From assembly GCF_963675165.1 (NCBI RefSeq), contig NC_087393.1, positions 4,469,502-4,533,501 on the forward strand: DNA of 64,000 bases, written 5' to 3'. This stretch comes from Halichondria panicea. Taxonomy: Eukaryota; Porifera; Demospongiae; Suberitida; Halichondriidae. Positions 41,796 to 64,000 of the stretch are shown piece by piece (the stretch's first letter is position 1; each line of letters begins with the position of its first letter). The notes under the pieces were generated by a model. It saw nothing but the letters and a program-made list of their open reading frames with translations, did not search any database and had not been told where the DNA came from. The position numbers and the translations under genes were made by a program.

Positions 41796-43492
41796 ATGCA
41801 GGTATTGTCCATGTCACTCGTAGTCTCCCCTGCCAGCCCCTGTCCGATACTGTGTGTTGGTCTGGCATGCCTGGATATCGTCAACTATTGTGACTACTAC
41901 CCGCAGGAGGACAGTGATGTAAGAGCTCGAGACCAGAAGTGGTGCTCCGGGGGAAATGCCCTAAATACGTGTAAGGTCCTCTCTCTGATTGGACGCCACT
42001 GTGAGCTGGTGACCACGCTAGGAGAAGGGATGGAGACTGAGTGAGAGACCACCATCTCATGAAGTTAACATTATAAGTGCTATTTTATATTTTAGTAGTG
42101 GTAGAAGGAAAGAACCATCTTCTAACAGAATAGCATTACATTATTGCTATTTTCAAATGCTGTTTGATATCTCCCTCTCACACACACACACACACCAGTT
42201 TTATAGTCTCTGAGATGGACAGATATGGCGTCCCCCACAGCTGCTGTGTTCCCTATCCTCAGTGCCGACTGCCCACCTCCTACATTGTGCTCAACACAAC
42301 TAATGGATCCAGAACCATAGTCCACTATCGGTAAGCTTGGAGCTCCCCTTATTAACACTTTTTGTAAATGGCTGCACAAAAATGTGAATTCTCACAATTT
42401 GTTTTACAGAAACCTTCCCGAGTTGACTTGTGAGGACTTTCTGAAGGTGGACATTTCACCATTTTCTTGGATTCATTTTGAGGTAATCACTATACAGTGG
42501 AATATCAGGCTAGCTCACCTTTGCTGCACAATCCTCCACAGGGAAGATGCCCAGATGTATACTCAAAGCTGGTTTCTAGAGTACAAGAACATAATCAGAC
42601 AGCTGAGAACAAAATCATCATCTCAATCGAAGTCGAGAAAACAAAGATTCAATTTTCTGTTCTAATTCCACTGGCAGACGTTGTAAGTGGAAATATTTCG
42701 CTAAATTACTATGTTTTAATCGTTTAAAAAACGCACAGCTTATCGTTGGTAAAGATGTCGCCCAGTACCTTGGATACCAGACCATGGAAGAGGCAGTTGT
42801 CAAGTTAAGGGAAACGGCCAAACACAGGTGAACACTTACTGGAAATGTATCGCAGTGGCTGTCATTATAATAAACAAATATTGTGTGTATATTGTAGAAA
42901 AGTATTATGTTTCAGTGTGTACATTTATAGCTTCTTTTTGCAGTGCTATAGTTGTTTGCCCTTGGGGCGATAAAGGAGCGGCTGCCTCTGATAAAGACGG
43001 AAAGGTAAATTTCCCTGTTCTTCCCCACTCCCCCCCTCCTTTCTTCCCACTATCCCCCACTACCTCCCACTCTTTCCTCCTCTTCCCTCACTCTCTCTTC
43101 TTTCTTCTCCACTATCCACAACTGTTTCCCTTTCTATCCCCCTAAGATGCCCTAACGATAACACACCCTCAAAATTTAGACCAGTCCACCATTAGAGATA
43201 CCTTAAACACATGTGCCGTACAAACCTTGTTATTATGTATGCGGCAGTTTAAAATTCAGCAAAATCGTACGTAGCTATTGATCACCTTCTGTACATGCAG
43301 GTGTACCAATGCCCTGCCACACCACCTGCGAGACTAGTGGATACACTGGGTGCAGGTGACACGTTCAACGCTGGTCTCATCCACAGTCTGTCTCTGGAGA
43401 AAGGTGTGGAGAAATCTCTACAGTTCGCCTGCGATTTAGCCGGAGCTAAGTGCGGTATGGCTGGGTTTGATGGACTGAAATCGTTTTGTTAA
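41796..43492 (+). CDS. KHK: ketohexokinase (fructokinase)
   Basis: Seven exons: 41796 (or 41811)-42040, 42199-42330, 42410-42482, 42542-42682, 42739-42827, 42944-43004, 43301-43492; 305 aa from the Met at 41811 or 310 from 41796 (human 298). The PfkB-family enzyme phosphorylates fructose to fructose-1-phosphate in the cytosol with ATP. Recognisable blocks: [82 protein letters not shown] and the PfkB signature 2 [12 protein letters not shown], whose Asp is the catalytic base, then [12 protein letters not shown] at the end. All catalytic blocks are present, so it should be active. The start is ambiguous because the bases at 41796-41801 also look like a splice acceptor. Its 3' end faces the receptor gene at 43726, 234 bp away. 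Confidence 0.93.
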
Positions 43493-43725: not shown

Positions 43726-45396
43726 TTAGGGTAAGCATTCGTAAGTGTTTTCAATTTCCTCTCTTTCAGTGTCAGCAGTCACACTAGTGTATACCTCATT
43801 CTCTGTGGTGGGTATTGAGGGGTCATTGTCAGAACTCGACTGTCTCACTCCAACATTTGTAATAGTCACATAGTCATAATTTCCTTCATCCTGAGCAGCC
43901 ACATTAACATTATCATACAACTCATCTTCTATGGTGGGTACTGAAAGATGGTTGATATTGCCATAGGCTTTATTTTGGGTCAGTTTCATTTCCACTTCTC
44001 CCTCGTTATTGTCATAGTAATCGTTTTCTTGAGCCAAGTTTTGTTTAGCTTCAGTATGAATGTGATCAATTTTTTCGTAAGTATCTTCCCCAGCTGTGTC
44101 ATAATCAGTGCGTTGGATAGTAGCTTTCTTATTTGTGGTTGTGGGTTTGTTAAGAGCTGAAAAATGTATAGCGTGCACATGACATACTGTTCGTAATAAT
44201 ATTGCATAAATGGTTACCTATATTAACTCTAGTTGCAGCAATGTATACAATAGCCGCCTACGGACGTACCTAGTGTCACAGTGGAGGTCTTTCTCTTCCA
44301 CTTGACAATAGCACAACACACAACACATACAAACAGAATGATGAGCATCACCACACCGGTAACACCTACGGCCACTCCTATACTCAGCATTTGTACTCCA
44401 GCATTCATTTCTGTCATATTGGGAAGTACAGAGTTAGTTGGCTTTGGAATCAGCTTTGTTGTAGTAGCAGAAGATTCCCTATTAAGTTGCATGGAAGTGT
44501 GTGTCGTAGCACTTTCCAATGATGCTGTTGAACGTTGGGTGGTTATTTCCGAGTTCTTTGCCGGGAAAGTCGATGATAGTTGAGGTGCTGAGGTTCTTGT
44601 GGTTTCGATGCATTTTGTAGGCACTAATATTGTGCAGTGGTCACATATAAACAGATGCATAAGCGCTCGGTGTACTTACTTACTACTCACCCCTTGTTTA
44701 GTTACTTGTATAGCTCTTATATAGCTTACCTATTATAGCTGTAATCAAAGGAGCACTATTTGTAGAGCGGAATTGCTCTGCATTGCACAGTGAAGTTGGT
44801 TCAATTCTGTCGCTGTTAATTGAATACAACACAGATTCATTAGTGTAGAGTTCATCACGACTGAAAAGTATTCCATTGTCATCATCAGTGCTAGTGAGAT
44901 TTAATCCGACCACGTCTCCTGGCTCCACTGATATCCATTCACTCTCTGGTACTGTCACGTTGATTAGACCTCTTTGAGGATCCAGAGAGCTTAATCCCCC
45001 CAGGCACATGTCTTGTAAGTAGTTTGCTCCAATCTTGCTATAACAGTTGTCTCCTAAAGATGAGTTGACTCTCCACACCTCAAAAGAAATAGAGTAGCAG
45101 TCTCGACCACTAGCTCTTTCCACAAAGGTTCTCCACTCAGTCACCACTCCACAGCAGTTGAACCTGTAGCTAGTGATGATAGCTTGGATGGGATTATCGC
45201 GAAATCGAGGTATTCTATCTTCTGTCCTCACAAAGTTTGGTAGAGGTAGTCTTCCATTACTTGCTTGAATACACCCATATGGTGTCAATTGTCCTATATA
45301 TACGTATATTAATTATACACAAGCTTATAATTATGCCTTACCATTACCCTTTCCCTGGAATATAGTCACAAGGCTTAGTACATATAGTAGCTTCAT
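43726..45396 (-). CDS. type I receptor-like protein R1 (WRP ectodomain, tyrosine-rich tail)
   Basis: Four exons (minus): 45396-45342, 45293-44730, 44623-44270, 44156-43726; all three introns phase 1; 467 aa. Order: signal peptide (MKLLYVLSLVTIFQG), a single-exon ectodomain of about 188 residues with YRFNCCGVVTEW, FEVWRV and VEPGDVVGLNL, a Thr/Ser stalk, a transmembrane helix (about 274-300, GVVMLIILFVCVVCCAIV), a KWKRK stop-transfer, and a tail with ten tyrosines: YEKI, YYDN, NKAYGNI, YDNV, YDYV, NEVYTSV, YECL. YGNI and YDNV are 12 residues apart, close to but not matching strict ITAM spacing/residues (the last position is V). I do not recognise the ectodomain as a named family. Function is unknown; an extracellular recognition protein that signals through tyrosine phosphorylation is inferred from layout alone. 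Confidence 0.85.
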
Positions 45397-45800
45397 TTCT
45401 TGAGCACCAATTAAAATTAGCCTGCTAATCTCTAAACTTAAAGAGAATGCACATACACAACGTATAAGGTACTGCCAAGGTTTCTGTTGTCTGCTTCAAA
45501 TAAATTAAACAGGTTACATGACATGACATCATTGCAAGAACTTTAACAAGTGCTTAATGTTCAGAATGAGAGGTTTCATATACACAAAACTGTGCCTGAG
45601 GGAGCTACGTGTATTTAGATCATGTTTGTCATAAATACTGCAATCTGATTGGTTAGAGGAAATGTTCTATCCAATTTAGAAAATCATGTACTTCAATAGA
45701 AAATCATGTACTTCACTTAGAAAATCATGTAGCAAAGATTAGATAAGAACATTCAAATCTGATTGGCTAAATACTCATGGTTGCTATGATCTAAAATGCT

Positions 45801-45931
45801 TAGACACTGTTTAGGAAGTTTCCACATGATTTAGAAGTCCTCAGGGCTAGTAGAACCCTCACTGCGTTCGGGATACTACAACCAGCCCTTTGGGCTTCTA
45901 AATCATGTAGAAACTTCCTAAACAGTGTCTA
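45801..45931. mobile_element. TAGACACTGTTT MITE
   Basis: TAGACACTGTTTAGGAAGTT and its inverse AACTTCCTAAACAGTGTCTA bound 131 bp with interior TTCGGGATACTACAACCAGC. Confidence 0.9.
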
Positions 45932-46677
45932 ACTATTATATAGTGTACATAATTATAGTGTAACCGTAAAATGTTTGTACATGTAGACTGCTCATCTGCA
46001 TTGAAAGCACGAGCACAAATATTGACAAGAGGATAGCGATGCAATGTGGTTTCTTTGATCTTTGCTCAAGCAAGCAATGTCTGTCGGTTGTTTACTATAC
46101 ATTGAAAGTTTGTAGTGACCTTAATTGAGACTGTCATCAGTTTTTTCTTCTACAACACTCGCTCTACACAGTTACAATGTTGTTTTAGTTTGTAACGAAA
46201 TCTGCAGCTTTCTTACCATTATTTCTTTCAAAATTAACCAATATAGAGCCACAAAGATAGCTAGTGCAGTTTCATTCTTAGCCGATAATAATTATATTCT
46301 GTGCATGCTTTCATAAATGTACTGTACGTACTATGCTTACTGCTATGGACTGCTATGAACTGTTATGGTTTTTGTTTCTGTTTATAACACGTCATCAACT
46401 AACAGCGTATACTAATGATACCCGTGTCAACTATTGTTTCTTTGATGTATCACATATATGCTTTCGTAAAGCCTTTTAATAAGTATGTAGGTTTCAGAAG
46501 GAAAGATACACAAACACAATTTTGTAACTACACCATCACCCCACCCTCTCCAGCTGACAATAACGCTGAATTCAACAGCGTATGTATAATTATGGCTGAT
46601 GCATCCACACGTACACAATGACTGTTGTCAAAATCTATATATACACACACATTTTAGTGAACTTTATACTGTCATAA
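45932..46677. other. no gene recognised
   Basis: Spacer between R2 (3' end) and R1 (5' side), AT-rich; no exon, RNA or transposon end can be supported beyond the neighbouring MITE. Confidence 0.45.
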
Positions 46678-49064
46678 TCATTTATCTACAGCATTCGCAC
46701 TAGACACTTGATGTGTGTATGTATATATGTACGTCTCATCTTCTGCAATGGGTTCCAAATGTTGAAGCTCTCTTGTTTTAGTGTAGGCTTTGTTTTCTGT
46801 CATTCTCATTACTGCTGGCCCTCCCATCCCCTCGTTTACATAGTAGTCAGGGCAACTCAGCCTCGGATAATCATACTCCACAATGAACGGGTTGCTAGGG
46901 TAACTGTAGATCTCACTCTGACGAGAGGTGTCAATTACTTGTCCGTATGATACGTTTTGTTCTGTTTGTGGATCTGTGCTTAAATCTATTGTGCTATATC
47001 GGTCTTGGATTGTAGTACTTGTTCTCTGATCGGATGTATTCAGGTTGACTCCTGGAATGGAATCAAAACACACACATCTAAGTGGAATCCAAACACACAC
47101 ATCTAAGTTCATATTGTTTTGCTTCCGCAATGTATACATTGTTATTGTGTAAACGGATGTAATTGTATAGCTCTTTTATGTATTCACTCCATAAGGTATT
47201 TCACCTCCTTTTGGTATGTTTCCTCTTTTCTTCATCACAATGCACACCAAAATAACCGCCAGCGTTACTAGTAGTGCTAGCACCAGCATTGCCACAGTCA
47301 TACCAACATGCAATCCTACGTTCACGTTTTGATTTGGCAAGGTAGGAAGTGCAATAGGTGTAGCTAGTAGGTTCTTTGAAGTCATGATAGGATGGTTAGA
47401 AGACTCGATAAATACTGTTAGTGGTGTGGTGTGTGTTTCCGTAGGCATTTCCCGTGTTGCAAGTAAAGTTGATAGCATGGTCTCCATAGATACTGGTGTA
47501 GACTTTATCCCTATATAATGTTGCACCTGATTATTAAGAGTGAATCATGGTCCAACTTACCTGTGTTTGTGGTAGTAGGTTTAGGGATTCTTGATGTTGA
47601 AAATGCAGTTGATATCTGGCCAAGTAAAGTTGGTAGCATGGTCTCCATAGATACTGGTGTAGACTTTATCCCTATATAATGTTGCACCTGATTATTAAGA
47701 GTGAATCATGGTCCAACTTACCTGTGTTTGTGGTAGTAGGTTTAGGGATTTTTGATGTTGAAAATGCAGTTGATATCTGGCCTAGAGTCTCCATAGATAC
47801 TGATGTAGAGCTTATTTCTAATGCTGCACCTGAAACCATTATACGTACAGTAGTACTGACAATACACATGTGTGAATGTTACAACTTACCTGTGTGTATG
47901 GTAGTAGTATAAGTAGTGGTGAGGAAAATAGAGGATGAGGTCGATGTTGGGCAGACCAGCGTGGATGTGAATGTAGAGGGGCAGTTACCGTTCACCGTAG
48001 TAGCTGTAGGTGACATTGAGATACTAGTAGTAGCATCGCGACCATTATACGTTACTATGTTGAAATTGACATCGTTTACTGCATGATGTCTGATCTAATT
48101 TGCGTATAGCGGGTAATTTTCGTGGGACAAAATTTTCGTGGTTGGAGGTCTGACCACGAATATTTTACCCACGAATGAAGCGACCTTGCCTACCTTTACC
48201 TGCAGTGCAAGTAGCAACCACGAAAATATTATCCCCACGAAATGACTAAAATAATATTGCTCAACCACGAATATTAAATTTTTGCCCCCCCAAAAGTTAC
48301 CCGCTATCAGACATGTACGGTATGCGTATGTGTACTAACTTCAGTAATTATGTATTTTGTAGTTACTGTATCGTTGCTTACCCAAGGACACTGAGATGAT
48401 TGGTCCAAGGCTTGTAGACATGCTGAGGTCCCCTGCATTGCCCACTTCCAGTAAGCACTCATTTTGTAGTTCAGAGTTACCAGTCGCATACCATAGCTCC
48501 TCAAGATTGAAGTCCCGGCTATCAAACTTCAGTCCTACATTAGTGCCGCCATCCTCCTGTTCAAGATAGTATCCAACCACATCTCCTGGTTGGAAGTCAA
48601 GTTGCTCACTGTTGGCTGGTATTTTTTCAATGTCACTGTTGGTATTAGGATTATTAGCGAAGGTAAGTAAAGGAAAAGAGTTCTCTCCAATTTTAACAAA
48701 TCTGTTGCTACTCATAGGCCTCCATATCTGGAACTTTATTGAGTACACTTCACCACCACTAGCCTCCAAAAAAGCTGACCAACCGCCGACTTTCCCACAG
48801 CAGTGGAACTTGTAACTTTTGATGATGACTTGGATCGGATTCACCTCAATTCGAGGGGCATTTCTTCCCGGGTTTTGGAATCTAGGCAAACTGTCTGCAG
48901 AGTTAGCCCTAAGGCATTCTCGAGCTTTTGACATAATATGTAAATTAGATAGTAAATACTGTGAGCAGGCTATGTGCGTACAGTTACATGTCATTCTCAC
49001 CTTTACAATAATCTACTGTGGTTATTAGCATAATTGTGACAACTGTCCTTAGTGAAATGTTCAT
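46678..49064 (-). CDS. type I receptor-like protein R2 (WRP ectodomain)
   Basis: Seven exons (minus): 49064-49001, 48924-48382, 48003-47890, 47829-47722, 47671-47561, 47510-47205, 47051-46678; all six introns phase 1; 539 aa. Signal peptide (MNISLRTVVTIMLI), WRP ectodomain of 181 residues (YKFHCCGKVGGWSAF, FQIWRP, FQPGDVVGYYL, EELWYATGN), a Cys-Pro-Ser-Thr stalk exon (NCPSTFTSTLVCPTS), three related Thr-rich stalk segments each with STxVSMET, a transmembrane helix (MTVAMLVLALLVTLAVILVC), KKR stop-transfer and a tail with SYGQV, IYSYP, YDYP, YYVNEGMG, NKAYTK and TYIYTY. The ectodomain exon has exactly the same length (543 bp) as that of R5. Function unknown, as for R1. Confidence 0.85.
47511..47829. 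repeat. tandem exon duplication in R2
   Basis: The string CTATATAATGTTGCACCTGA with following intron and stalk-exon sequence recurs with a period of about 161 bp (47511 and 47672). It yields two nearly identical stalk exons (47561-47671, 47722-47829) and the related start of the next exon. Confidence 0.9.
48103..48324. mobile_element. CGTATAGCGGGTAATTTTCG MITE in R2 intron 2
   Basis: Inverted ends GCGTATAGCGGGTAA and TTACCCGCTAT..CGGTATGC with paired TTTTCGTGG/CCACGAAAA strings inside; same broad family as 4912-5078. Confidence 0.75.
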
Positions 49065-49544
49065 TCTTGAAGAGAGCCAGATGGTTCAAGATTAGCTATA
49101 ATTATAGCTGGTGTTTATAGCATATGCTTTATATATGGTCATTGATTCAGAGCATTATTCATCAGCTGACAAAGTGATGAATTGTGTACATGGCATATTA
49201 GAGTAAATGAGAGACCGTTAATAATGGATGCCTTCCTTATTATAGTAAACATGCTACAAGTTAATTGTTATAGCCATCGCGTGAGCACTGGCAGCCAATG
49301 CATTAATTGCATACCATTCTTTTAGCTTCGTGCAGAATTATCTATAAAGCGTGCCGTTGAATATTTACATGCACACAACATTGGTGATTGATAGTTTGAT
49401 TGATAGTAACATGATTACTAAATAATTAAGCCGTGTGGAAAGTATAATGTATATTCACGGTTTAGTGTAAGTACGTTGTACTGACTTTTACATTGCTAAT
49501 TTAATATCTAACATACATAATCATAAGCACTCATGCAGTGCGCT

Positions 49545-49605
49545 AGTGTTAGCGGTCACACTAGTGTGTGCCTCATTCTCTGTGGTGGGTATTGAGGGAT
49601 CATGC
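49545..49605 (-). pseudogene. relic of a receptor tail exon
   Basis: The plus-strand string ACACTAGTGTGTGCCTCATT followed by CTCTGTGGTGGGTATTGAGG matches the tail-exon ends of R1 (about 43783-43825) and R5 (about 55545-55590), encoding the IPTTENEAYTSV motif. Nothing else of a gene surrounds it. It marks a deleted cluster member. The rest of 49065-49867 holds no recognisable gene. Confidence 0.75.
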
Positions 49606-50444
49606 TTTTGTTATGTATTAAACATTTAATGTGATGGTAAGCCATGCATGAAATATGTACGTAATACCGTATTTATACTTATAATAAGTACATTACTGTA
49701 TAACAATACACTGTATGAGATAATACCCAACACACAGCACATTCTCTAAGGATGCTAGACCTATAGTAAATGTATTGCCTATAACATAATCTTCAGTCTC
49801 AGTTTTAGCAGTCACACATTACTAGATCAGAGTCCCATGCATGTGTCTCTGTGCATATGCAGCTCCATCATATACATGCTTCGCTCAATACATCAATGCA
49901 TTGGTCATCATTTGCTACCGTGACAACCAATCCGCTATCTGACATAACATGGTTTGAAACACTTGATTCTTGTATTTGTGAAATTTCACCAGAGTTGCCT
50001 AATCTTCCATAAGCTTCGTTCTTGCTAATTACTGGATCTGGCCCTGCTTTGTTCAATGTACCAATGCAGTGGTCATCATTTGCTACCGTGACAACCAATC
50101 CGGCCCTATCTGATATACGGAACTTTAATCCTTGTGTTTGTGAAATCTCACTAGAGTTGCCCAATCTTCCATAAGCTTCATTCTCAGTGCCAATTATTAG
50201 ATCTAATCTCTGTGGTGGATGTGGAGGGGGCGTTGTCAGAGCTTGGCTGTCTAACTCTCGTCTCATTTCTTGTGGGTGACCATTTGTATTAATGTCACCC
50301 GGATCAGTATCGATGTAGTCGTACATAGGTTCTGTATTATGTTCTTCAATTCTCTCTGTGTGATAAGAAACATGGAGTATAATAGCTGTATACATACTTG
50401 TTGCATTTTGAGTGGGCAGATCAAATGAAACACTGTGCCAATAT

Positions 50445-51033
50445 TAGCCTCGATTCAAGGCCGATTAAAATACGGCCTGGTACTTATTGCAGGGGTGATA
50501 GTGCGCATGCGCTTCAAATTACCCAGAATATGGATAATCGTACCACGAACGTAAAACCTTAGTAAATTATCCGGAAATTAGTCCGTTTACTAAGAATATG
50601 TTCCGTAATACTTATCTCAAAGACTGAGTTCTGTGAAGCTGTGGCTTATGCCGTCTATTGCGTTGGTCTAGAAGGCTTAAACACTAGTTTTAAGACAGAA
50701 GAGGCTCTCATCTACGTCTAGGATGGTCCTATAGCCGGGTTGTCTTTGCAAGTGGCAGTTTGAGGCACCATACACTTCTCATATAGCCTGTACAGATCCA
50801 AGGTAAGACATCCTGACCATACAACCGTCATAGAGGTAGATGAGAACCTCTTCTGGCTTCAGACTAGTGTGAAACAACGCAATAGAGAGCTAAGCTGATG
50901 TTACAAAGATAGAAAATAGATGAAGGAAGAAAAAGGGGATTCCCCAGATTCTGGTGAATAAACTAACGCATGCGCACTATCACCCCTGCAATAGGTACCA
51001 GGCCGTATTTTAATCGGCCTTGAATCGAGGCTA
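50445..51033. mobile_element. MULE-like foldback element, 9-bp TSD
   Basis: 589 bp with long inverted arms (TAGCCTCGATTCAAGGCCGA and its inverse) flanked by a perfect 9-bp duplication TGCCAATAT at 50436-50444 and 51034-51042. It sits in the last intron of R3. Inner arms also pair, so almost the whole element can fold back on itself. No transposase. Confidence 0.9.
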
Positions 51034-51870
51034 TGCCAATATCTGCCATATGGCACAGGTCAAACGGTGAACTGTGCCATACTATGGCATGGGTGAAGTT
51101 ACCTAAAGCCCACCCTCCATCTAGATACTGGCATAGTATGGCTGAAGTTACCTAAAGCCGACCCTCCACCCAGTAACCTGAAACGGTCCCTTTTATAGTA
51201 TAACACTGTCAACAGATTCAGTGGTAGGCAGAAAACGTTTTTCATGCGGCTGGTGCATTCCACAGCCGACTACAAATAGTTGCAAACTATAGTTGTCCTA
51301 TAAAAGGAGTGATGTGTACACGGAAAGGAATGCAACAAGGAATGCAACAAATCAGTTGTTACACAGCTATAGATCTACTGCATACTAATTGCACTAAGTA
51401 CATGGGATTTAAGCAAAGAGACTTCTGAATCATCATTGTTGACTCATGTATATACGTCATACACACTTACCCATGCAGCCATGCCTTTTTATGCATATCA
51501 AGGTAGAAATAGATATGATTATGGCTACTACAACCACCAGTTGAAACTACACCAGCAATAACAAACACAGTCGTATCGGCAGTAGACATGGTGTTGTTGG
51601 TGGGTAATGTGGTCTGAGTAGGTTGAATCTGTGTCGTGGTAGTAGCAGGTTCAGCAGTAGTACCAGGTGCAGCAGTAGTAGTAGTAACTATTGTACTTGG
51701 AGCCTGCTGAACCACTCCCGTTCGCTGATTGGCCCAGTAGGTCATCCGTGTTTCAACTACAGCAAATCTGCAGTGTGTAAACAATGTGACATAATAAATA
51801 ACAGATAACAGTAGCTACTGAAAGACTAAAACACACTATTGAAGGTGTTTTAGGTGTGGGGGGACTATAA

Positions 51871-52076
51871 CCATATCGCAGGTTATTTTGAGGGACTAAA
51901 TGTTCGCGAAATGCTCAAACTAAACATTTTGCGGATTATGTTTTCGAGGATAGAGGTTCAAACGACCACACCCCTACAGTAGAGAAGTTCCGGAAGTAAA
52001 CCAATTTTGAGGTTCGAGGTCAAACCTTGAAATTTAGTGCCTCAAAAATAACCAGCTGTACGGTACTATGCATATT
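51871..52076. mobile_element. inverted-repeat element in R3 intron 3
   Basis: Left GCAGGTTATTTTGAGGGAC and right CTCAAAAATAACCAGCTG are inverted; about 200 bp, no coding. Confidence 0.6.
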
Positions 52077-52859
52077 TACTCAAGCGTAATAGGTTCCAAA
52101 CTCACCCAAATCTGATATCTCCAGTGTTACCCATAGGAGCTGTCCAAGTGAAATAAATGATGTCTTTATCAGCAGGTGAGTTGTGGGTGACTCCATCCTG
52201 AAAGGAAAAGTGGTTAGAGTGCAAATACAAACCAACATTTTGGTCTCAGTTTTGAACCAAGGATCATAATAAAATATGCAACTTAGCTTATTAGACCAAA
52301 GCTCCTACTGATATAAGCTAGGCCATGCATCAACGGTTAGCTAAACTGCAGATCTGCTTACCGTGTTAATAGGACAGCTGCTGAGTCTGCTTTGGTCTGC
52401 CAATGGCCCTGTTGGAGCGAAGACTCCAGCACGAGTGGTATCATCGTTCATCAGCCTTGCTTGCACGAAAAATCCTCTGAAAGTGCCTCCAACAGTTGCG
52501 TTAGCAATCGACACTACAAAAAAGCAAAAGTGGAAGCTTTTTCAGATACCTAACAAGAGCCTTCAGGTAGAATTGATTAAGCAGAACATGCAGCGCTGCA
52601 CCATACTGCAATGCAATATTATAATTCTCAACGTACAGGTGTAGGTTCTTCCAAGGTAGAATGTAAAAGAGTTGTCACTAGCATTATAGAAGGGCATGAG
52701 ACTAATAGCGTAGGGGACATCACTGGCCTGTGGCTGGGCTAAATGAATGGGGGAGAGGCTATCACAGGCACCAGCAGGTGCACCACTTGAATAACCCTCC
52801 ACAAGCAGTCCTATGGAGGACATCACCAAGGAGACACCGATAAGCAGCTTCATACTCAC

Positions 52860-53553
52860 AACAGGCTATTGAGACAATCTGCAAAGGAAAGAAAGTAACT
52901 CAAAGATTTCCAGGAAAATGTTCACATTAATTTATAGAGAGCTACACTTATTTTATCTATATATGTGACTATGCTTGGTCTATGTATACTCATGCACCTA
53001 AAATGCAATACAGCAGAAGCTCTTTACTCACCACTCAGTCTGATCTGCACAGACGTACTGAATATTTGTAGGTTAAGGGTGCCCGCACATAGTGACATAA
53101 TTTAACCACAAAAATGCAACGTTTAGATCACGTGTGCAATTTGAAACTTGCACTTGCAATATTTAATTTCAATGCGTGCGCTAGAGTATAAAGTATCAAT
53201 TGTCAGACAGAACATATAATCAGACAGCTGCCAGAGGAGAACGGATGGGCGAAACAAGCTGATTTTTCACCTGACAATAGATCTACCTATAAACAATGTA
53301 ACCTCCAAAAATATACACCAAAATGTGGTGTGTCTGATAAATTGATTAATCAGACAAAATAAACATAATATCGGACACAGGAACCAACGAATCACTAAAG
53401 AGGCAGAGCCACAAGATTTAATAGCCCAACATATCACAAAACAAAAGAGCTACATGTACCCTACACATGACAGCAGCAGTTACAAAACCACTAACTGCAC
53501 TGCACATAGACTATATTATAGCTGTTACAAAGTGCACATAGATTGATACTCAC
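52860..53553. other. no gene recognised
   Basis: Spacer between the R3 5' end and the R4 relic; presumably includes the R3 promoter. No motif can be assigned. Confidence 0.4.
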
Positions 53554-54231
53554 TCGAGATGATTGGTCCAAGGTTTGTAGACATGCTGAGGTCCCCTGCA
53601 TTGCTCTTCCAACAAGCACTCATTTTGTAGGTCAGAGTTACCAGTCGTATACCATAGCTCTTCAACATTGAAGTTACTATCAAACAATTAACAGACCTCC
53701 GTTATTGTCACCAGCCTGCTCGAGATTGTAACCAACCACATCTCCTGGTTGGAAGTCAAGTTAATGGCTTTGGCTATGAGACTAGCATCAGCCAGTGTAG
53801 GAAATGAGTTCTCTCCGATTTTAACAAATCTGTTATCCCCCATAGACCTCCATATCTGGAACTTTATTGAGTACACCTCAGTATGAGCACCACCACCAGC
53901 GTCTACATACGCAGCCTAACCAGCAACTCTCCCATAGCAGTATATATAGAACTCGTAGCTTTTAATAATGGCTTGGATCGGATTCACAGCCATTTGAGGG
54001 GCACGGTTTCCTGGGTCTCCAAAGCTATATAGGCAGACTGTCTGCTCCATCAGAGTTAGCACGGACACAATCCTGAGCTGTATACAATCATAAACAAAGC
54101 TATGAAATTATCTGTAGATAGCTAGTATGACACTGACACTGACATTGTCATTGTGCACCTCTGTACATGCACTTACCTGTAACATGACTAGCAATTAGTA
54201 CCAGTGCTAGTGAAATAGTGATTAGTGTCAT
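53554..54231 (-). pseudogene. relic R4: signal-peptide exon plus degraded WRP exon
   Basis: The signal-peptide exon 54231-54177 is intact (MTLITISLALVLIASHVT) and nearly identical to that of R5. The ectodomain exon, 54077-53554, is 524 bp instead of 543 and has stops and frame changes: an inserted TA after ..GACAGTCTGCCTA, a stop after GRVAG, and a lost stretch near ..FNLTSNQEMW. The part YSIKFQIWRSMGDNRFVKIG is still readable. No stalk, TM or tail exons follow. Dead paralogue closest to R5. Confidence 0.85.
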
Positions 54232-54799
54232 TCCTATTGTATTAGATCTAGGGTGCATGCGTAGATCTATATAGACGTCTATATGTGTTTCCTGGTGATC
54301 AAACTTGATTGTGGTCATATTGTTGTATGCTTGAAGGGTTTCTCTTATTTGAAACCAAAAATATCCACATACACAACTAACACGCATGTACGAGCAAGCA
54401 TATACAAAGTTCGGTTTCTTTATAGGTGGAATTTCCTTCGACATGTGTCCATCAATCAGTTTGTAATCAGTAATCACAACATTGTAATACTGTAGTTCAT
54501 ACTTACCGCTTTACAATGAACCCTAATAAGTTTTCTAATAGCAGCACTATTATGCAGCTTCACATTACACACCACTATAGATCATGCAGTACCACACCGA
54601 CCTTATCAGATGCACTCTCCGTATTTAGAGTTGAATGTGGATTTTTGCAACAAGCGTATAGTTGAGTGAACCTTGGACCCAGTTCCTGTAGTCCCACTTG
54701 TTTAGAATTCCTGAAAACGTACCTACACAAGAACAACAAAACTGTCCTCACAACTATCACAACAGATCTACATGCATGAATGCACAAATTAACGACTAA

Positions 54800-55370
54800 T
54801 TACCCAGTGGAACATCAAGGTGCCACTTCGGCTGTAGTTTGAGCTGCTACTGACTGAGCAGCACACAAGACACTATTATTATGCAGTACAGGATTGTGTT
54901 TATTTCAACTTACCTGATAAGCTGAAAACAACTAGTATTAGCATAAACATGTTAATTCTTCCCATCTTGACAGTCCAGAGTCCTGGTCTCTTAATTACAT
55001 ACAATAAATTATTCTGGTGCTTGTGAACTTTGTTTGCATGTACTCTCGGTTTACTTTAAGCATCCCATTATTTTTTAACCACGCTCAATTTAATGGTGCA
55101 TGGGTAACCCGAAACTTATATTGCATTTTCATTGATCCAAGAACCTTGCAACAATGCAATTAAGAGCAGACCATCCTTTTCATATAAAAGCCATGCAATA
55201 TAATAATGTCGCCTATTGTGTGTTTATTGCCACTGTACACTTTTTAACCCACAAAACACATGTATTTACTATTATGGCTTCAAGCCAAACTTTATACAAC
55301 AACAATCACAGCATGCAGCTGTTGTGGAAACTCAAAATCAGAAGCTTTTTGCATAAACTATAAGATACAC
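54800..55370. repeat. segmental duplication with 62100-62640
   Basis: Beyond the R7-like 5' end, the upstream flank is also shared: CCACGCTCAATTTAATGGTG, CATTGATCCAAGAACCTT, ACAACAATCACAGCATGCAG occur in the same order in both places, with small indels. Confidence 0.85.
54802..54965 (-). pseudogene. relic of an R7-like gene 5' end
   Basis: 54965-54914 is a signal-peptide exon of the same 52 bp as in R7 (MGRINMFMLILVVFSLS). 54856-54802 matches the first ~55 bp of the R7 ectodomain exon (AGCAGCTCAAACTACAGC..) and then similarity stops; the rest of the gene is gone. Confidence 0.8.
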
Positions 55371-55498
55371 TCTCTGAAAACATTCCATCGCAGGACCATA
55401 CAAATTATTGCTGTAGTTTTACTCTACCATAGGCTATATAGACATTATATGTGAAGTTTTGTGGAACTCTGAGAGGGTCACCCGTTAGGTTTTGTTCA

Positions 55499-58400
55499 TT
55501 ACACAACATAGTCATAATATTCTTCAGCCTCGGTGTTAGCAGTGACACTAGTGTATGCCTCATTCTCTGTGGTGGGTATTGAGGGGCCATTGTCAGAACT
55601 CGACTGTCTTACTCCAACGTAGGCTTCATTTCTTATCATTGCCACTTCTGCTGTGACATATATAAATAGTATACATGTATATTTATAGTGCATATAGGTT
55701 TGAACATACCTCTTTGTCGTTTGTTTTCCCTCTTCTTTGTCACCACACAAGCCAAAAGCATCACTGCAGTCAGTATGACCAACAGCACTAGTACTGCAAC
55801 AGACACTGCGATTCCAGCAAACAGTCCCACGTTCACTTCTTGAGGTTGTGTTGTAGTAACTGCTGGTGTGACTTGAGGAGAGTTCATGGGAGAACTGCTT
55901 GGTTGTGGTAGACCAGTGGTTGTTATAGGTGCTGACACAGAGCTAGACTCAGCTTGAAGTCCGAAGTCACTACTAGAGGGTAATATTGTCATTCCAATAT
56001 TGTCTAGAGTAGCACTGCTTGGTTGTGGTAGACCAATGGTGGTTATAGGTGCTGACACAGAGCTAGACTCGGCTTGAAGTCCGAAGTCACTACTAGAGGG
56101 CAGTATTGTCTCAGAGGATATTCCAATCTTGCCTTGAGTAGCACTTACTGCTATGGTTGTTGGTTCTGTAATTATTGTGTACATGACGAAAATACATAAT
56201 ATTATACCTTCAGTCTGTTGTCTATTATGTAGTTTGTATAAGGTAACAGGGCGTGTGCATGTCCTTTCTATTACATGGTCGTTTTATGCAATATATATAT
56301 ACAAGCAACTAGCTCGCCCTCATACTTGTGCCTGTCTATTTCAGTCATTATGCTATACACACAGAGGAGGTTCGACACGGTCAAAAGGTCATTAATGAAT
56401 TAATCACTTGCTCTATGTTTCTAATGGAGATTCAACTTGATGCTGATTCATCGATGTACCCCAGATCTCTCATCATTTTCTCTTGATTCTTCAAACAAAA
56501 TAATAACAATCAATCCAATGTACCCCTCAGGTACATCAGTAGGAAGCGAGAAATTCTAGCTTAACCTTTTGAACTCTACACCACCCCAATTTTCACCAAC
56601 GCTTTGGAAACGCAAGAAAAATACAAGCATTGGCAGCCTTCAAAGACGTCGCTTAGACTATAATTATAAGCTTAGTTCTTTTACATCAAAAAAAGGTATT
56701 AATGTGCCTTCAAACGATTAAAGTACAGTTTGCGTTATATGCGTGTTAAGCATTGAATCCAAAGGTCAGGAATGCAATACGCTAGTGTTGTTATCCTTGA
56801 CCTTTTGACCTTGTCGAACCTTCTCTGTATTACACATGCATAACTCACCATTAACAGTTAATGGGGTCACAGTGGCCACATAGGTGGGGTTTAGGACCAT
56901 GGTCGAGGTGGAGGGACAGTCCACAGTGGTTGCTATAGTGTACATTAATAATTGAATTAAAACTATGCATGCAGCAATAACCTATCAGTTGGATATGTAT
57001 ACCATGCTGAAAGTAATGCTTGCATGGTTCTCGATGTTATGTCTACGTAGTTCGGTTACTTGTTGCAGCCTTTTCATAAAAGTGCATAGCAAAACTTATC
57101 CATGAAGTGTTGCTACTCTACTTAGTAGTTAGCTCTGTACTTAGAACGCTATAGCTATATATACAGACAAAATCAAATTGCACTGGAAGCCTTAACATCC
57201 TAGTATGTATATATAACACCGACAAAATCAATCACTACCGCCCGCATCAGTTTATTCTTCTCATTATTTCTACTACGCATGCATGTGGCACAAAATAGTG
57301 TGCAAATATGACATAATGACAAAAGCTGCCCACCCGCATGCAATTAGAAAAACTTCTGTACGAGAAACCAGAGTATCCTTGGAGTGGCCTTATATAGGTA
57401 GGAGGGAACAGCTGCAAGTTGACATATCAATACCATGACAAGAGGCCCAAAAATGTGTTACCATGGCTATGACATCATCACATTGCGGAACTGACTTCTA
57501 CCTTAGCATGCCTAGCCTCGTTCCCAGGCCTTCCTTTTTCTTGCTGCATCATAGCATCATAGATACCATATAGCGAGACGATATAAATGTTTGTGGTTTT
57601 CGCTGATTAAGCATTAGCCTTGATTTATTTTAATAGGCCTTGAATCGAGGCTTATTAAGCATGTACCGCAAACATTTATAATCCAGGATGACTTTATTAC
57701 CATGCGTGCATGCCGCTGCAAAATGTTTTTCCGCGAATATTTATACCCTCGAGCTCGAATAATACGGTATCTCAACATAAATAGAAGGCAGCAAAAACAA
57801 AAAGACGAAATGAGGCAGCAAAGAAAGACATGAGCGTATTTTTTCTATATAGTTCTTATGAACGATTGTGACAAAGAACAGAAAAGGAAGAGCCTGTGTA
57901 GAGGCATGCATACAGTAGAATCTCGCTATACCGGTATTCCGGTTCTCTGAAGTATGCCGCCTCGGTATACGGGCCATTTGGTACGAATTAATTGCTAGCT
58001 AGATGTTACTGCACAAAACTTGCCCTGAAATGCGGCCCCTTTGATGTGATCTGCCAGTATGCTATAAGACGAGAACTGACATCTATAGAATTCATGAAAA
58101 ACTCCAATGGGGGCCAGGTGTATATTTTCCATTTTTACTTGAGTGTTCTGACAAAATAACATAGATTGATACTCACTAATTGATATTGAGATGATTGGTC
58201 CAAGGCTTGCAGACATGCTGAGGTCCCCTGCATTGCCCACTTCCAGTGAGTTGTCATTTTGTAGGCCAGAGTTACCAGTCGCATACCATAGCTCTTCAGA
58301 AGTGAACCCAGCATCAAACTGCAGACCTCCATTAGTGCCACCATCCTGCTGGAGATAATATCCAACCACATCTCCTGGTTGGAAGTCAAGTTGTTGGCTG

Positions 58401-58879
58401 GGAAGTGGTGTTGCAGCAATGTAGCTGTTAGTAAGAGTAGCAGGGAAAAAGGAATTCTCTCCAATTTTTATGCAACTTGCACTATTCTCACTCGTTGGTC
58501 TCCATATCTGGAACTTTATGGAGTACGCATTAGTATGACTATTGCCACCAGGCTCCACATACGCAGCCCAACCACCAACTTTCCCACAGCAGTGGAACTC
58601 GTAGCTTTTAATGATGACTTGTATCGGATTCACACGAACTATAGAGTTCCAATTATTTGGGTCTAAGAAGCTAGGCAGACTGTCTGCTCCATCAGAGTTA
58701 CCACGGACACATTCTTGAGCTGTACAACAATCATAAGCAAAGCTATGAAATTATCTCAGTACTATAGCCAGTATACACTATAATACATGACACTGTCATT
58801 GTGCACCTCTGTACATGCACTTACCTGTAACGTGATTAGCAATTAGTACCAGTGCTAGTGAAATAGTGATTAGTGCCAT
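55499..58879 (-). CDS. type I receptor-like protein R5 (WRP ectodomain)
   Basis: Five exons (minus): 58879-58825, 58719-58177, 56932-56849, 56165-55710, 55650-55499; all four introns phase 1; 429 aa. Signal peptide (MALITISLALVLIANHVT), WRP ectodomain (YEFHCCGKVGGWAAYV, FQIWRP, FQPGDVVGYYL, EELWYATGNSGLQ), a short TTVDCPSTSTM exon homologous to R2 exon 3, a stalk with a two-copy repeat of about 35 residues (ILPSSSDFGLQAESSSVSAP), a transmembrane helix (VAVLVLLVILTAVMLLACVV), KKR and a short tail: RNEAYVGV, NEAYTSV, EEYYDYVV at the very end. The long intron 2 holds transposon debris (57563-57770 MITE, a single Tigger-like end at 57913). Function unknown. Confidence 0.85.
57563..57770. mobile_element. 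ATACCATATAGCG-type MITE with an inserted MULE tip
   Basis: Ends ATACCATATAGCGAG and AATACGGTAT are inverted-type; within it, TTAGCCTTGATT...GGCCTTGAATCGAGGCTTA (about 57611-57656) is a minimal foldback of the MULE-like tips. Confidence 0.6.
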
Positions 58880-58937
58880 TTCTATTGTAGCTACAATCTG
58901 TAGTCTAGCTGCGGTGCATAGATCTATATAATAGTTA

Positions 58938-59059
58938 TAGACACTGTTTAGGAAGTTTATCCTGGTTTAGAAGCCCAAAGGGCTGGTTGTAGTATCCCGA
59001 ACCTAGTGAGGGTTCTACTAGCCCTGAGGGCTTCTAAATCATGTCGTAAACAGTGTCTA
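58938..59059. mobile_element. TAGACACTGTTT MITE upstream of R5
   Basis: TAGACACTGTTTAGGAAGTT at the left, AAACAGTGTCTA at the right, 122 bp, with the family interior GTAGTATCCCGAACCTAGTG. Confidence 0.88.
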
Positions 59060-59387
59060 GATCATAGCAATTATTCAAGTCTCTAGCCAATCAGACTTGT
59101 CTAAACTTTGCTACATGATTGTCTAAGTGTTGTCTAAGTGAATTACATGATTGTCTAAGTATAAGTATATTACATGATTTTCTAAGTTAGATAGAGCACT
59201 TCCTCTAACCAGGCAATCAGATTGCAGTTTATGACAAACATCTATATATATAGACGTCTATTTACAGTGTCCTGATGACCAGACTTTGTGGCCATATTAG
59301 GTTGCCTGAAGGGTTTCTCTACTATAATTATACTGAACCACATACATACAACTAACACATCAGGAAACAGCTTGTTTGACACTAATA

Positions 59388-59760
59388 CTCACTGTCTAAT
59401 TTACCCAAGGAGAAAAGTCTTCCACTTCTCACCACACTGGAAGTAAAAAAATCAACTGGAGCTGATGGTATCTCGGCTCTAAATGCCAAAAAAACACAGC
59501 ACATTCTATAGTACCCAGCCTCTCTGGTAAGGTTCCCAGAGACTGAAAGTTTGTTCGAGTGACTCAAATTCCAAATTCTGGTGACAGAGAAAATCCTGCT
59601 AACTACGGACCAATACCTGTTATCAGTGGAAAGGCACATACTGAGTGTCATGGCAACCCATGCACCTCCATGCAAACTCTCTCCTTGTCTACTCACCAAT
59701 GGGGCTTCACTGCAGGGAACAGCACAACTTCTTATCTTTTTCACAAGACTTCCTCGAATT
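59388..59760 (+). pseudogene. non-LTR retrotransposon reverse transcriptase relic
   Basis: Plus-strand fragments in shifted frames match a LINE-type reverse transcriptase in order: KKSTGADGIS (59449-59478), IPNSGDRENPANYGPIPVIS (about 59565-59625; the NYRPIS block) and QWGFTAGNST (about 59697-59726; the QFGFRxGRST block). Stops and frameshifts separate them and no catalytic YADD is seen. Clade not assignable. Confidence 0.8.
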
Positions 59761-60712
59761 CACTTTTCATAATTGGGCTAAGCCTATACTGTAGATCCAT
59801 GCACTTTTTGCACAAATTCAATTTTATAGTGGTCGTTTCTACTATGCCACTACTTAAATCCCGATTAGATTATGTCAGCCTGCAATCTGATTGGTTAGAG
59901 GTAGTGTTCCTTTCAACTTTAAAAATTATGTGTATACTTCACTTTAATCATGTAGCCTGATTGGCTAGATATTCGTGGTTGCTATAATACATGATCTAAG
60001 CTTAGACACTATTTAGGAAGTTTTCGCGTGATTTAGAAGCACTAATGGCTTAGTGGAACCCTCACATACGTTCGGGATACTTGCAATTAGAGAGCTTAAA
60101 TTGTTTGTTGCAGGTATATGCATGTGGAGCTAATAAATAGCTTCAGACTAACTATAGTTTATTCGTATACAGGAGCAACGTGATCGAGTGTTCAGAACTT
60201 CTTCAGCATGAGTAAAACTTGGCAATGGCAAGAAATATTAAGCGATTTAAAAAGACAATGCTTTTGCCTGAGGCAGTAGCATGCATTACTGCCTGACATC
60301 TCTTTAACTAGGGAGGGGGCTAAACATCGAGGCAAGCGTCCTATAGCAATCGTGTGGGCCCAGTGAAATATCTAGCAATCGTGTGGGCCCAGTGAAATCT
60401 CTGCATGCCATGTCTTTGTGCAACTATACACATGCACTTGAAATCTCAAAAAGAGTAATAAAAACATTCAAAGCACTGTTGTTCATCAGCTGCACAACAA
60501 AACTGTTGAATGTGCATAGCATATACTTTTAAACATAAAATTATAATTATAATGTTATAGCCATACAAAAATAGTTTACCGATAATTATAATGTGTACTG
60601 TCAAGCATTTGCCATGCAGAGAATGTTATTATGCTACACAATTAACACAGGATGCTATAAGCCTTATGTAGCTAATGCTATATAATCTTCATGCATGCAG
60701 ACAGTTTAGCAG
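59761..60712. other. no gene; truncated MITE
   Basis: Holds the truncated TAGACACT MITE end at 60003-60092 and a direct repeat of GCAATCGTGTGGGCCCAGTG at about 60347 and 60377. Otherwise AT-rich without exons. Confidence 0.5.
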
Positions 60713-62251
60713 TCATGTGTATATATTGTCTACTGCTCCTCTCATTCCCTCGTTCATGTGGTCATCACTTGTCGTGGCAACTTCCTCATAGGTTGGGTTC
60801 CCATTTGTTAAGATGTCACCTGGATCAGTATCAATGTAGTCGTACATAGGTTCTGTATTATGTTCTTCAATTCTCTCTGTGTGATAAGAAACATGGAGTG
60901 TATACATAACTTTATTGCTTTTTAAAAACTCGTTTGTGCCTATAGTAACTGTCACTCGTGCCTTGCAGGCACTCGTGCAGTTACTGGCCACACTTGTGAT
61001 AAATCTTCAATATCTATAGGATAATATCATAGTATATAAATACCGATGCATAGTCAATACATGGTCAATTAAACAACCAATTAGTAGGAAGCTATGCAGT
61101 ACAATACTATTGGAAGTAGGAGACCCTGAATCATTGTTGTGGTATGCAACTCATGTATATTGTCATGCACACTTACCCATGCAGCCATGCCTTTTTATGC
61201 ATATCAAGGTAGAAATAGATATGATTATGGCTACTACAAGCAGCCCACCAGTTGAAACTACACCAGCAATAACAAACACAGTCGTATCGGCAGTAGACAT
61301 GGTGTTGTTGGTGGGTAATGTGGTTTGAGTAGGTTGAATCTGTGTTGTAGATTCTAGACACGATAACGGAAGATTTTGTGGAGTGCATATTCCGTTAGCC
61401 AAAACAGTGCCTAAAGTTGCAGCTGTAGTTTCTGTAGGAGATAGTTAAACAATGTGTCATTTTTGTGCATGCAGTCTGATTCTATATATACAAATGTATG
61501 GACTTGTGTAGCGCTGCATATTATTCTTGATGTATATAACTCACCGTACTGCAGAGTAATGAGCGGGAGAGAGGATTGTTTTTGGACTTCTTTGTCGCAC
61601 GTATACAGCTCACAGGGATCGCTTGACGACACTTTGATAAGTAGTTCTGAGCTCAAGTCGGTGCTATACAAAGCTACACCAAAACCTCGTGTAAGTCCTT
61701 GTGATGGTGGACTGTACCAGCCCAGTACATCATCTGGTTGGAAATGAATTCGTTTGTTTTCAGAAATTTGACTAGTGAGCGTTGCGAATGTGATGTTGGA
61801 ATTATCAAGTGTCACTGTTTCAGTTCGAGGGCGATAAGTTAATAGGTTAGATCCAACTAGATCGAATTTTTCATCAAAATCTTGACTTGGCCTCCAAACT
61901 TGGAGATATAATAGGTGGGTAAGTCTTAGACCAGTCTCTTGATCTTTGACAGTGACTAGAGCTCTCCATTCTGTGATTTGTCCATGGCACTCAAACTTGA
62001 TCCCGGGAGTGATAACTTGTATATTCCTGAAATCCGGAGCTATCTCAGTGAGATCTGCACTCGGTTGGAGAGAGTCAACGGCTGGAAACCCAGTGCCACA
62101 TTGAGGAACCACTTCAGTTGTAGTTTGAGCTGCTACTGAGCAGCATATAGACACTATAGTATAATGCAGTACATCAGGATTGTGTTTGTTTCAACTTACC
62201 TGATAAGCTGAAAACAACTGGTATTAGCATAAACATGTTAATTCTTCCCAT
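60713..62251 (-). CDS. type I receptor-like protein R7 (diverged WRP ectodomain)
   Basis: Four exons (minus): 62251-62200, 62135-61545, 61431-61177, 60876-60713; all introns phase 1; 353 aa. Signal peptide (MGRINMFMLIPVVFSLS), ectodomain of 197 residues with IKFECHGQITEWRALV, LQVWRP and FQPDDVLGWYSPP (the most diverged copy, with four further Cys), a Thr stalk (TTQIQPTQTTLPTNNT), transmembrane helix (LLVVAIIISISTLICI), KRH and a 53-residue tail: MYDYIDTD, TYEEV, MNEGMRG, NIYT. The stalk/TM exon is nearly identical to that of Reeler gene R3, and the tail starts with the same EEHNTEPMYDYIDTDPGDI, although R3 then differs. MNEGM replaces the YVNEGM seen in R2, i.e. the Tyr is lost. Function unknown. 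Confidence 0.85.
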
Positions 62252-62639
62252 CTTTGACAGTCCAGAGTCCTGATCTCTTAATTACACACAATAAATTATT
62301 CTGGTGCATGTGAACTGTGTTTGTACTCTCGGTTTACTTTAGGCATTCCATTAACCACGCTCAATTTAATGGTGCATGGGTGACCCGAAACTTACTGCAT
62401 GTTCATTGATCCAAGAACCTTATTGTATATCTGGATATTTAGGTTGCAGACAATCCTTTTATTGTAAAGCACTATACGTTGTGTTGCCTATTGCGTGCAT
62501 ATTGCTATATATACTACACACTTTTTACCCCACAAAACACATTCATAATTATATGACTTCATGCAACAACAATCACAGCATGCAGCATACAGTTGTTGCC
62601 AATAAATTTTTCAATGAATAGAAGCCTTTTGCAGTCATG
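62252..62639. other. R7 upstream region (duplicated flank)
   Basis: Presumed R7 promoter region; shared with 54966-55370 (see segmental duplication). No exon seen. Confidence 0.5.
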
Positions 62640-64000
62640 GAGCTGAAATCACCAGCCGAATACACACAAGGTGAGTCGAGTGCAAAACAACGAGTAGAAT
62701 CGAACCAAACATTATAAGAATTGTCTCCAGCAAACTGGATACCATCATCATCATTATACTACTCTCCAGATAGAACCCGACCACATCTCCTGATTGGACC
62801 TCAATCCTCTCACTCTCTAGTGGTACCCCAGTCACTATTCCTCTGTCAGTGTTAGGATCAGCCAGTGGAATAGGTGAGAATTCAACAATAGTGTATTGGC
62901 CATCAGGAGGAGAGTTTGGTCTCCACACTTGGAATGAAACGGAATAAGGTTGATCATCAAAATTTACAGGGCCTCTTCTCTCCACAAATGCTCTCCACTC
63001 AGTAATTTGCCCATAACAATTGAACTTGTAGCTAGGTATAATGACCTGTACTGGGCCCCCACCACCGGGTCTGACAAAGTTTGGTAGAGGACAGGTACCA
63101 TCCGTTGCCATCAGAGAGTCTGCAAAACAGTCAACCGGTTAATATAGCCACACTATTGTAATGAGAAGGAACTTCAATGTTGAAGCACTAATACACACAC
63201 TGTCTGAAGATGACCACACAGCTATTTTATGAGTACGTTCTCAACTCACTGTCTACAACAACTGGAGTACCAGGTCCAGTGGTGATGGGGGTGGGTGTGG
63301 GGGTGGGGGTGGGGCAGAACATGGTTGAGGTGAAGGTAGAGGGCCAGTTATATAGCCATATGCAGAGGTAATTGCTATAGTGAGGGAAGTATGAGTATAA
63401 AAGCAGTAACATTTGATCACACATATAATTATGTGTAATACTTTTACAGGAAACACATCATGTTCACACTCACTAAGTGATATGGAGAGGATTGGTCCAA
63501 GGTTTGACTGAGTCAAACCTTGTCAGTTTGTAAACATGCTGAGGTCCCCTGCATTGCCCACTTCCAACAAGTTGTCATTTTGTAGGTCAGGGTTACCAGT
63601 CGCATACCATAGCTCTTCAGAAGTGAAGCCACTATCAAACTGCAGACCTCCATTTTGGTTTATGTTGTCTTCTAGATAATATCCAACCACATCTCCTGGT
63701 TGGAAGTTAAGCTGCTCACTGTTGGCTGGTATTTCTTCAATGAGTCTAGTCAGTATAAGTGAAGGAAATGAGTTCTCTCCAATTTTGTTATCCCCCATAG
63801 GCCTCCATATCTGGAACTTTATCGAGTATAAGCATTTATAGTATGACCACTGCCACCAGGCTCCACATACGCAGCCCAACCATCAACTCTCCCACAACAG
63901 TGGAACTTGTAACTTTTAATGATGACAAGGATCGGATTCATTTCAATTCGAGGGGCTCCATTCCCTGGGTCTCCAAAGCTAGGCAGACTGTCCGCTCCAT
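62640..64000 (-). pseudogene. relic R8: two broken WRP exons and a stalk exon
   Basis: Runs off the window's right edge. 64000-63474: R5-like ectodomain (FGDPGNGAPRI, YKFHCCGRVDGWAAYV, FQIWRP, FQPGDVVGYYL, EELWYATGN) broken by a 2-bp insertion before YSIKF and by a ~23-bp insertion with a stop near its end. 63374-63250: the CPST stalk exon (NWPSTFTSTMFCPTP), length inconsistent with its phase-1 neighbours. 63119 to about 62640: a second WRP exon, R1-like (CPLPNFVRP, YKFNCYGQITEWRAFV, FQVWRP, VQSGDVVGFYL) with a 1-bp frameshift before DDDGIQFAGDNSYNVWFDS, cut off where the duplicated flank begins. Could be remains of one two-domain receptor or of two fused genes. Confidence 0.78.

Follow-up and report, generated by a model that had tools for sequence, protein, structure and literature searches.

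A chromosome-linked family of candidate recognition receptors in a siliceous sponge

Results

Receptor genes, relics and a Reeler-domain gene in the window

The window, i.e. the whole stretch of 64,000 nucleotides analysed here, corresponds to C17:4469502-4533501 of an assembly of 131.5 Mb in 39 contigs, to which C17 contributes 5.74 Mb (4.4%). It contains the following receptor genes, relics and related features:

43726..45396, minus strand: R1, receptor gene with exons 45396-45348 (signal peptide), 45293-44730 (ectodomain), 44623-44270 (stalk and transmembrane segment, TM) and 44156-43726 (tail); 1398 nt, one terminal stop
46678..49064, minus strand: R2, receptor gene with exons 49064-49001, 48924-48382 (ectodomain), 47510-47205 (stalk and TM) and 47051-46678 (tail), and optional stalk exons 48003-47890, 47829-47722 and 47671-47561 (114, 108 and 111 nt); 1620 nt with all three optional exons, 1287 nt without them
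49868..52852, minus strand: Reeler-domain gene (PF02014 on the hand-spliced protein) with stalk, TM and tail of R7 type
53528..54231, minus strand: relic, frameshifted class A ectodomain exon with profile pieces in several frames and internal stops; its signal-peptide exon, located by eye, at about 54231-54177 (minus)
54780..54970 (approximate), minus strand: relic, R7-type signal-peptide exon and start of an ectodomain exon, by eye against exon 1 of R7
55499..58879, minus strand: R5, receptor gene with exons 58879-58825, 58719-58177 (ectodomain), 56932-56849 (linker), 56165-55710 (stalk and TM) and 55650-55499 (tail); 1290 nt, one terminal stop
60713..62251, minus strand: R7, receptor gene with exons 62251-62200, 62135-61545 (divergent ectodomain), 61431-61177 (stalk and TM) and 60876-60713 (short tail, acceptor at 60876); 1062 nt, one terminal stop
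62576..64000, minus strand: relic, from profile pieces, best read as one two-ectodomain gene

A sequence-only reading had proposed four intact genes of one layout. When the splice models were rebuilt, R1, R2, R5 and R7 indeed each gave a single open frame with GT..AG junctions, and all four are intact models of type I receptors in which a signal peptide is followed by the ectodomain, a Thr/Ser stalk, the TM, a basic stop-transfer sequence and a tyrosine-containing tail. The spliced lengths proposed earlier were recovered for R2, R5 and R7; the 1404 nt proposed for R1 result if the next GT, which by reading lies 6 nt downstream, is used as donor, the model otherwise giving 1398 nt. The ectodomain, expected to comprise about 190 residues, measures 180-196 residues and is encoded in each of the four genes by one exon of 543-591 nt. 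All internal splice junctions of these genes are in phase 1, so that the modules, like the optional stalk exons, can be joined without loss of frame, and each of the eight possible subsets of the R2 stalk exons leaves the frame open. Part of the R2 stalk region consists of a 161-bp unit present twice (98% identity), and the stalk and TM exon of R5 carries an internal 120-bp repeat (94% identity); tandem duplication thus seems to alter the length of the stalk itself. In view of the anatomy of the genes, a transposon origin of the family was considered but not adopted.

A profile built from 20 ectodomains of the family (A1) was searched against the six frames of the window and found 13 pieces with E-values from 7e-75 to 0.005. 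All of these lie between 44.7 and 64.0 kb on the minus strand, and every further row is at E 4.3 or worse. Broken relatives, which had been noted amid the intact genes, lie at 54.2-53.5, at about 55.0-54.8 (by eye) and at 64.0-62.6 kb. The last of these has the order class A ectodomain exon, which continues past the right edge of the window, Cys/Pro linker exon and class Y ectodomain exon, and its reading as a single relic of a two-ectodomain gene is suggested by this order.

The gene at 52.85-49.87 kb encodes a different head. Its hand-spliced protein matches PF02014 with E 7.7e-21 (75.4 bits, gathering cut-off 21), and its DNA is 95% identical to R7 in the stalk and TM exon (200 columns) and 92% identical in the tail (109 columns). 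Compared with R7, 5 bp are missing from the TM exon, and the gene is therefore probably decayed and dead, or its product soluble. Among the matches listed for the genome, four of seven Reeler-domain places are located on C17 (4436921, 4272496, 3981041 and 3928155); the copy in the window, being split by introns, is absent from these seven.

Several other elements were observed in the window. On the left flank of the cluster, at 40707-42044 (plus strand), lies a BTB-domain frame (PF00651, E 3.5e-10), together with a pfkB-like frame that scores below its cut-off. A 498-aa open frame at 29585-31081 (minus strand) has repeated YVNEGLG motifs resembling the YVNEGMGG in the tails of R2 and some class B members, and it might perhaps encode another receptor tail or a docking protein. 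By eye, mutually similar, MITE-like inverted stretches lie between receptor genes at 45.9-45.8, 59.1-58.95 and 60.1-60.0 kb. An element of about 59 bp at 50441-50500 recurs at at least 35 other places on many contigs with 93-98% identity (40 of 868 candidates scored). The tandem repeat at 10520-11054, both strands of which have long, repetitive open frames, is probably non-coding.

Silicatein is known only from siliceous sponges, and silicatein-type exons, in which Ser replaces the catalytic Cys, are present in the genome at C2:659 kb, C2:668 kb and C6:200 kb, which marks it as the genome of such a sponge. Among the hits of the silicatein search that were read, the first three loci keep the catalytic Cys and were assigned to cathepsin L; of the four small regions read next, three have Ser in place of Cys, as above, and one is cathepsin-like.

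Distribution of the family over C17

Ectodomain places were collected by four protein searches of the sponge's own genome (E up to 0.001 in one, up to 0.01 in the others). Merging gave 49 places, 47 on C17 and one weak place each on C16 and C5. This count is too low, since places within 300 bp on a strand were merged and the entry at C17:4541583-4543356 spans several pieces; the genome searches ignore introns and thus give lower bounds, and many of the places are fragments or hold stops. The merged places on C17 are arranged as follows:

C17 4.514-4.566 Mb, minus strand: ectodomain block
C17 4.604-4.644 Mb, plus strand: ectodomain block
C17 5.219-5.230 Mb, plus strand: ectodomain block
C17 5.582-5.601 Mb, plus strand: ectodomain block
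C17 2.88, 3.47, 3.56-3.57, 3.73 and 5.62 Mb: scattered ectodomain places

Tandem duplication, divergence, relics and receptor layout, as claimed for the window, extend over one chromosome (47 of 49 places), and the window is one edge of a larger receptor complex on C17. The further claim of a common strand is true of the window, where all members are on the minus strand, and fails across C17, where 29 places are on the plus and 18 on the minus strand.

The modules beyond the ectodomain show a related distribution. All 18 places that match the R1 tail cassette, its own included, are on C17, as are 16 of the 23 places that match a 79-aa stalk and TM stretch of R5, the other seven lying elsewhere; the weak R5 matches, including those on C17, may reflect general TM similarity. 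At 23 loci, the frames beginning beyond base 1700 were scanned, and 17 of these loci showed a TM segment after the ectodomain; L010, L011 and L015 have only segments without a stalk, and for L021 and L022 no TM was detected in these frames. L033 is an eighteenth TM locus; its stalk and TM continue in the frame of the ectodomain and for this reason escaped the scan. Once two duplicate readings of R2 had been dropped, there were 31 open frames that cover at least about 150 of the 196 profile positions.

Exchange of modules and two-ectodomain loci

The stalk/TM region of R5, a class A gene, is 91% alike to that of L032, a class Y locus at C17:4553267, whereas the ectodomains of the two classes agree to about 39% only (comparison of L032 with R2, which is also of class A), and the TMs of R2 and R5, both class A, are 51% alike over 51 aa. 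A copy of the 79-aa R5 stretch with 99% identity is located at C17:4544970.

A single open frame results at C17:5589667-5591195 when the exon of a class A ectodomain is spliced to a Cys/Pro linker exon and this to the exon of a class Y ectodomain. No signal-peptide exon was recognised between the two ectodomains, nor, in the piece examined, one upstream of them or a TM exon downstream, so the gene may be incomplete. The same arrangement recurs, as order only, at C17:4554814-4553267, with an in-frame stop in the class A place, and in broken form at 64.0-62.6 kb of the window. Some genes thus probably encode two-ectodomain receptors, as far as exon order and frame indicate. The ectodomains at C17 5599428 and 5600339 are separated by a signal-peptide-like exon and were for this reason read as two genes.

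The ectodomain

The ectodomain had been described as unassigned, and it remained without a significant match in Pfam, PDB sequences, prokaryote genomes and viral contigs. Pfam gave chance matches only, with best E-values of 0.039 for seven frames of the window and 0.12 for 20 ectodomains. One ectodomain sequence found three PDB entries at E 0.82 or worse, and the ectodomain profile found none among PDB sequences up to E 10. Pattern matches in prokaryote genomes (99) and viral contigs (20) included no confirmed relative. For all 20 ectodomains, the immunoglobulin (Ig) family was absent from Pfam matches up to E 1; the structure comparison is not strong enough to rule out an Ig-like fold.

Two AlphaFold models built from window sequences alone (6 and 7 rows) reached a mean pLDDT of 52, and Foldseek with the first of them (pLDDT 52) returned nothing at E <= 0.001. 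In VIA-align, the rows of these weak models mix carbohydrate-binding, F5/8, TNF, PHR, enzyme, phage and capsid chains, which limits the claim to a probable beta-sandwich, perhaps a lectin-like one, as judged from the models. In the literature covered by titles and the beginnings of abstracts, with few subscription papers among it, no description of this family was found.

Tyrosine motifs in the tails

Thirteen tails, with limits set by eye, comprise 1757 residues with 7.8% Tyr. They contain 65 YxxPhi motifs, seven of them in R1, compared with a mean of 20.0 and a maximum of 34 in shuffled tails (0 of 2000 shuffles reach 65), and 36 N-x-[AV]-Y cassettes compared with 1.7 in shuffles; as the tails are homologous, these counts are not independent, and they are evidence that YxxPhi is retained, not evidence of repeated origins. 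Counts of hemITAM-like motifs were left aside because a single tyrosine can enter them repeatedly. Other motifs were not clearly enriched in the 13 tails, namely ITIM-type (11 vs 6.7, reached by 136 of 2000 shuffles), ITAM-type (2 vs 0.4, 132 of 2000) and Y.N motifs (15 vs 11.6, 335 of 2000). SH2 domains were detected at 71 places in the genome.

Constraint, recombination and possible conversion

Rates were compared with custom scripts in two hand-picked subfamilies, class B (n=13) and class A (n=7). Median dN, dS and dN/dS were 0.180, 0.346 and 0.54 (range 0.26-1.17) in class B and 0.155, 0.376 and 0.44 (range 0.34-0.70) in class A, so that the highest ratio of any single pair was 1.17. When all 31 frames were paired, ratios ranged from 0.42 to 1.05 in the 30 pairs with the lowest dS, one identical pair apart. 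Windows with dN/dS above 1 occur (1.29, 1.29 and 1.82), largely because of low pS. The ectodomains are therefore under loose constraint, and dN/dS falls short of proving positive selection. Along the exon, the conserved cores NPIQ, SY.F.C.G, VWRP and GDVVG alternate with variable, indel-rich segments.

In 15-codon windows, pS varies from 0.04 to 0.50 along the ectodomain exon, a pattern as expected if conversion had occurred. In a PHI-type test, likewise a custom script on the same subfamilies, none of 1000 permutations reached the observed value in either class A or class B, which speaks for recombination within the ectodomain exons of both. The alignment of L064 and L065 has 45 mismatches in about 716 bases up to base 1402, none in the following 536 and five in the last 270 or so, an identity boundary that shows recombination directly. 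As a separate observation, 148 aligned ectodomain codons of L065 (C17:5222520) and L064 (C17:5227742) are identical in DNA while their upstream flanks differ by about 6%, reflecting either a recent conversion or an assembly duplicate.

These data also bear on the possibility that the genes belong to an ordinary adhesion or developmental receptor family without a recognition role, the local expansion of which is now decaying. Such a family would account for dN/dS values mostly under 1 and for the many broken copies, and local tandem expansion alone yields clustering, conversion and relics. However, the spread of blocks over the chromosome, the modules shared with the Reeler gene, the two-ectodomain frame and the enriched tyrosine motifs exceed what decay would be expected to leave, and we regard this explanation as quite unlikely.

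Discussion

The gene anatomy, clustering, relics, module sharing, recombination and motif enrichment described here characterise a receptor family of one sponge chromosome. The tyrosine-motif tails, the shared modules and the recombination together favour a recognition or immune role. A function in recognition appears rather likely, and it is, on balance, probable that the window lies at the margin of a large complex of recognition receptors, each with a single TM, which is linked to one chromosome of a siliceous sponge.

It might be hypothesized that, once transcribed and brought to the cell surface, each receptor displays one ectodomain, or probably two in some genes, on a Thr/Ser stalk of variable length. 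The ectodomain would bind a partner carried by another cell or by a microbe, and binding would lead to phosphorylation of the YxxPhi tyrosines in the tail and to recruitment of SH2 proteins. Diversity is generated by tandem duplication, by recombination or gene conversion in the ectodomain exons and by phase-1 exon shuffling, and many receptor copies are lost to decay.

What such receptors would recognise can be specified tentatively. Allorecognition in particular is conceivable but somewhat doubtful. Its main rival is the sensing of microbes or symbionts by germline-encoded pattern-recognition receptors, the heads of which would bind microbial glycans and which would have expanded like the SRCR and NLR families of sponges; we consider this a real possibility, short of the probable. 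Those expansions are, by their published descriptions, likewise large sponge receptor families linked to immunity; they differ in consisting of unrelated domains, none of which matched the C17 ectodomains in Pfam. Even in the case of microbe sensing, the C17 genes would form a large receptor family with a domain absent from Pfam. Receptors for gamete or larval-settlement recognition also evolve fast and, on general grounds, would be expected to show the same anatomy and evolutionary pattern; we deem this role very improbable.

Comparison with known recognition systems

Clustered, duplicated single-pass receptor genes with relics, a feature of allorecognition systems, were found here in gene models that predict a surface location. 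Sponge aggregation factors, secreted proteins with Calx-beta domains, are the long-standing self/non-self candidates of sponges. Among the matches listed for the genome (150 of 645 candidates scored), no Calx-beta domain is located on C17; one match, at C6:2382998-2383231, lies within an open frame of 10065 aa. These factors are named in PMC5450542, according to which sponge grafts have been described since 1869, and a mapped chromosome-linked receptor complex would provide a concrete locus for tests of segregation with graft outcome.

In Dictyostelium, the tgr self/non-self genes are described as duplicating and recombining in a hotspot (PMC12324515). The C17 family is similar to TgrB1/TgrC1 in its duplication and recombination, a likeness at the level of description, and differs in that the tgr genes belong to another organism and have an established role.

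The Alr proteins of Hydractinia are reported as a single-pass transmembrane family of the immunoglobulin superfamily, encoded in several clusters with many probable pseudogenes (PMC11067881), and their tails are reported to carry ITIM- or hemITAM-type motifs (PMC12065747). As far as these accounts go, the C17 family resembles Alr in its clustered single-pass receptor genes with pseudogenes or relics and in having tyrosine motifs in its tails. In contrast to the Ig ectodomains of Alr, those of the sponge have no Pfam Ig match; moreover, polymorphism and control of fusion are known for Alr, whereas the C17 family is known from one assembly.

The FcoR proteins of the Botryllus fuhc locus are described as type I transmembrane proteins with long tails bearing ITIM, hemITAM or core Y-x-x-I/L/V motifs, with genotype-specific splicing mostly between ectodomain and TM (PMC12065747). 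By that description, the C17 models share the type I layout and the core motif, and the spliced region is the one in which R2 has its three in-frame optional exons. FcoR ectodomains, however, consist of Ig and sushi domains, and the C17 tails are dominated by the core motif, with few ITIM or ITAM forms. At the sequence level, membership of the Ig family fails, and the likeness to Alr and FcoR is a resemblance of design.

According to a 2025 review, the proteins proposed to mediate allorecognition in sponges, cnidarians and ascidians lack conservation (PMC12065747). It might be speculated, as an unlikely but specific possibility, that C17 carries the chromosome-scale histocompatibility complex of a sponge which decides between fusion and rejection through an undescribed ectodomain, its design of clustered receptors with tyrosine tails having been reached independently of Hydractinia and Botryllus. 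If the C17 complex does control recognition, three animal lineages would use a similar design with unrelated ectodomains.
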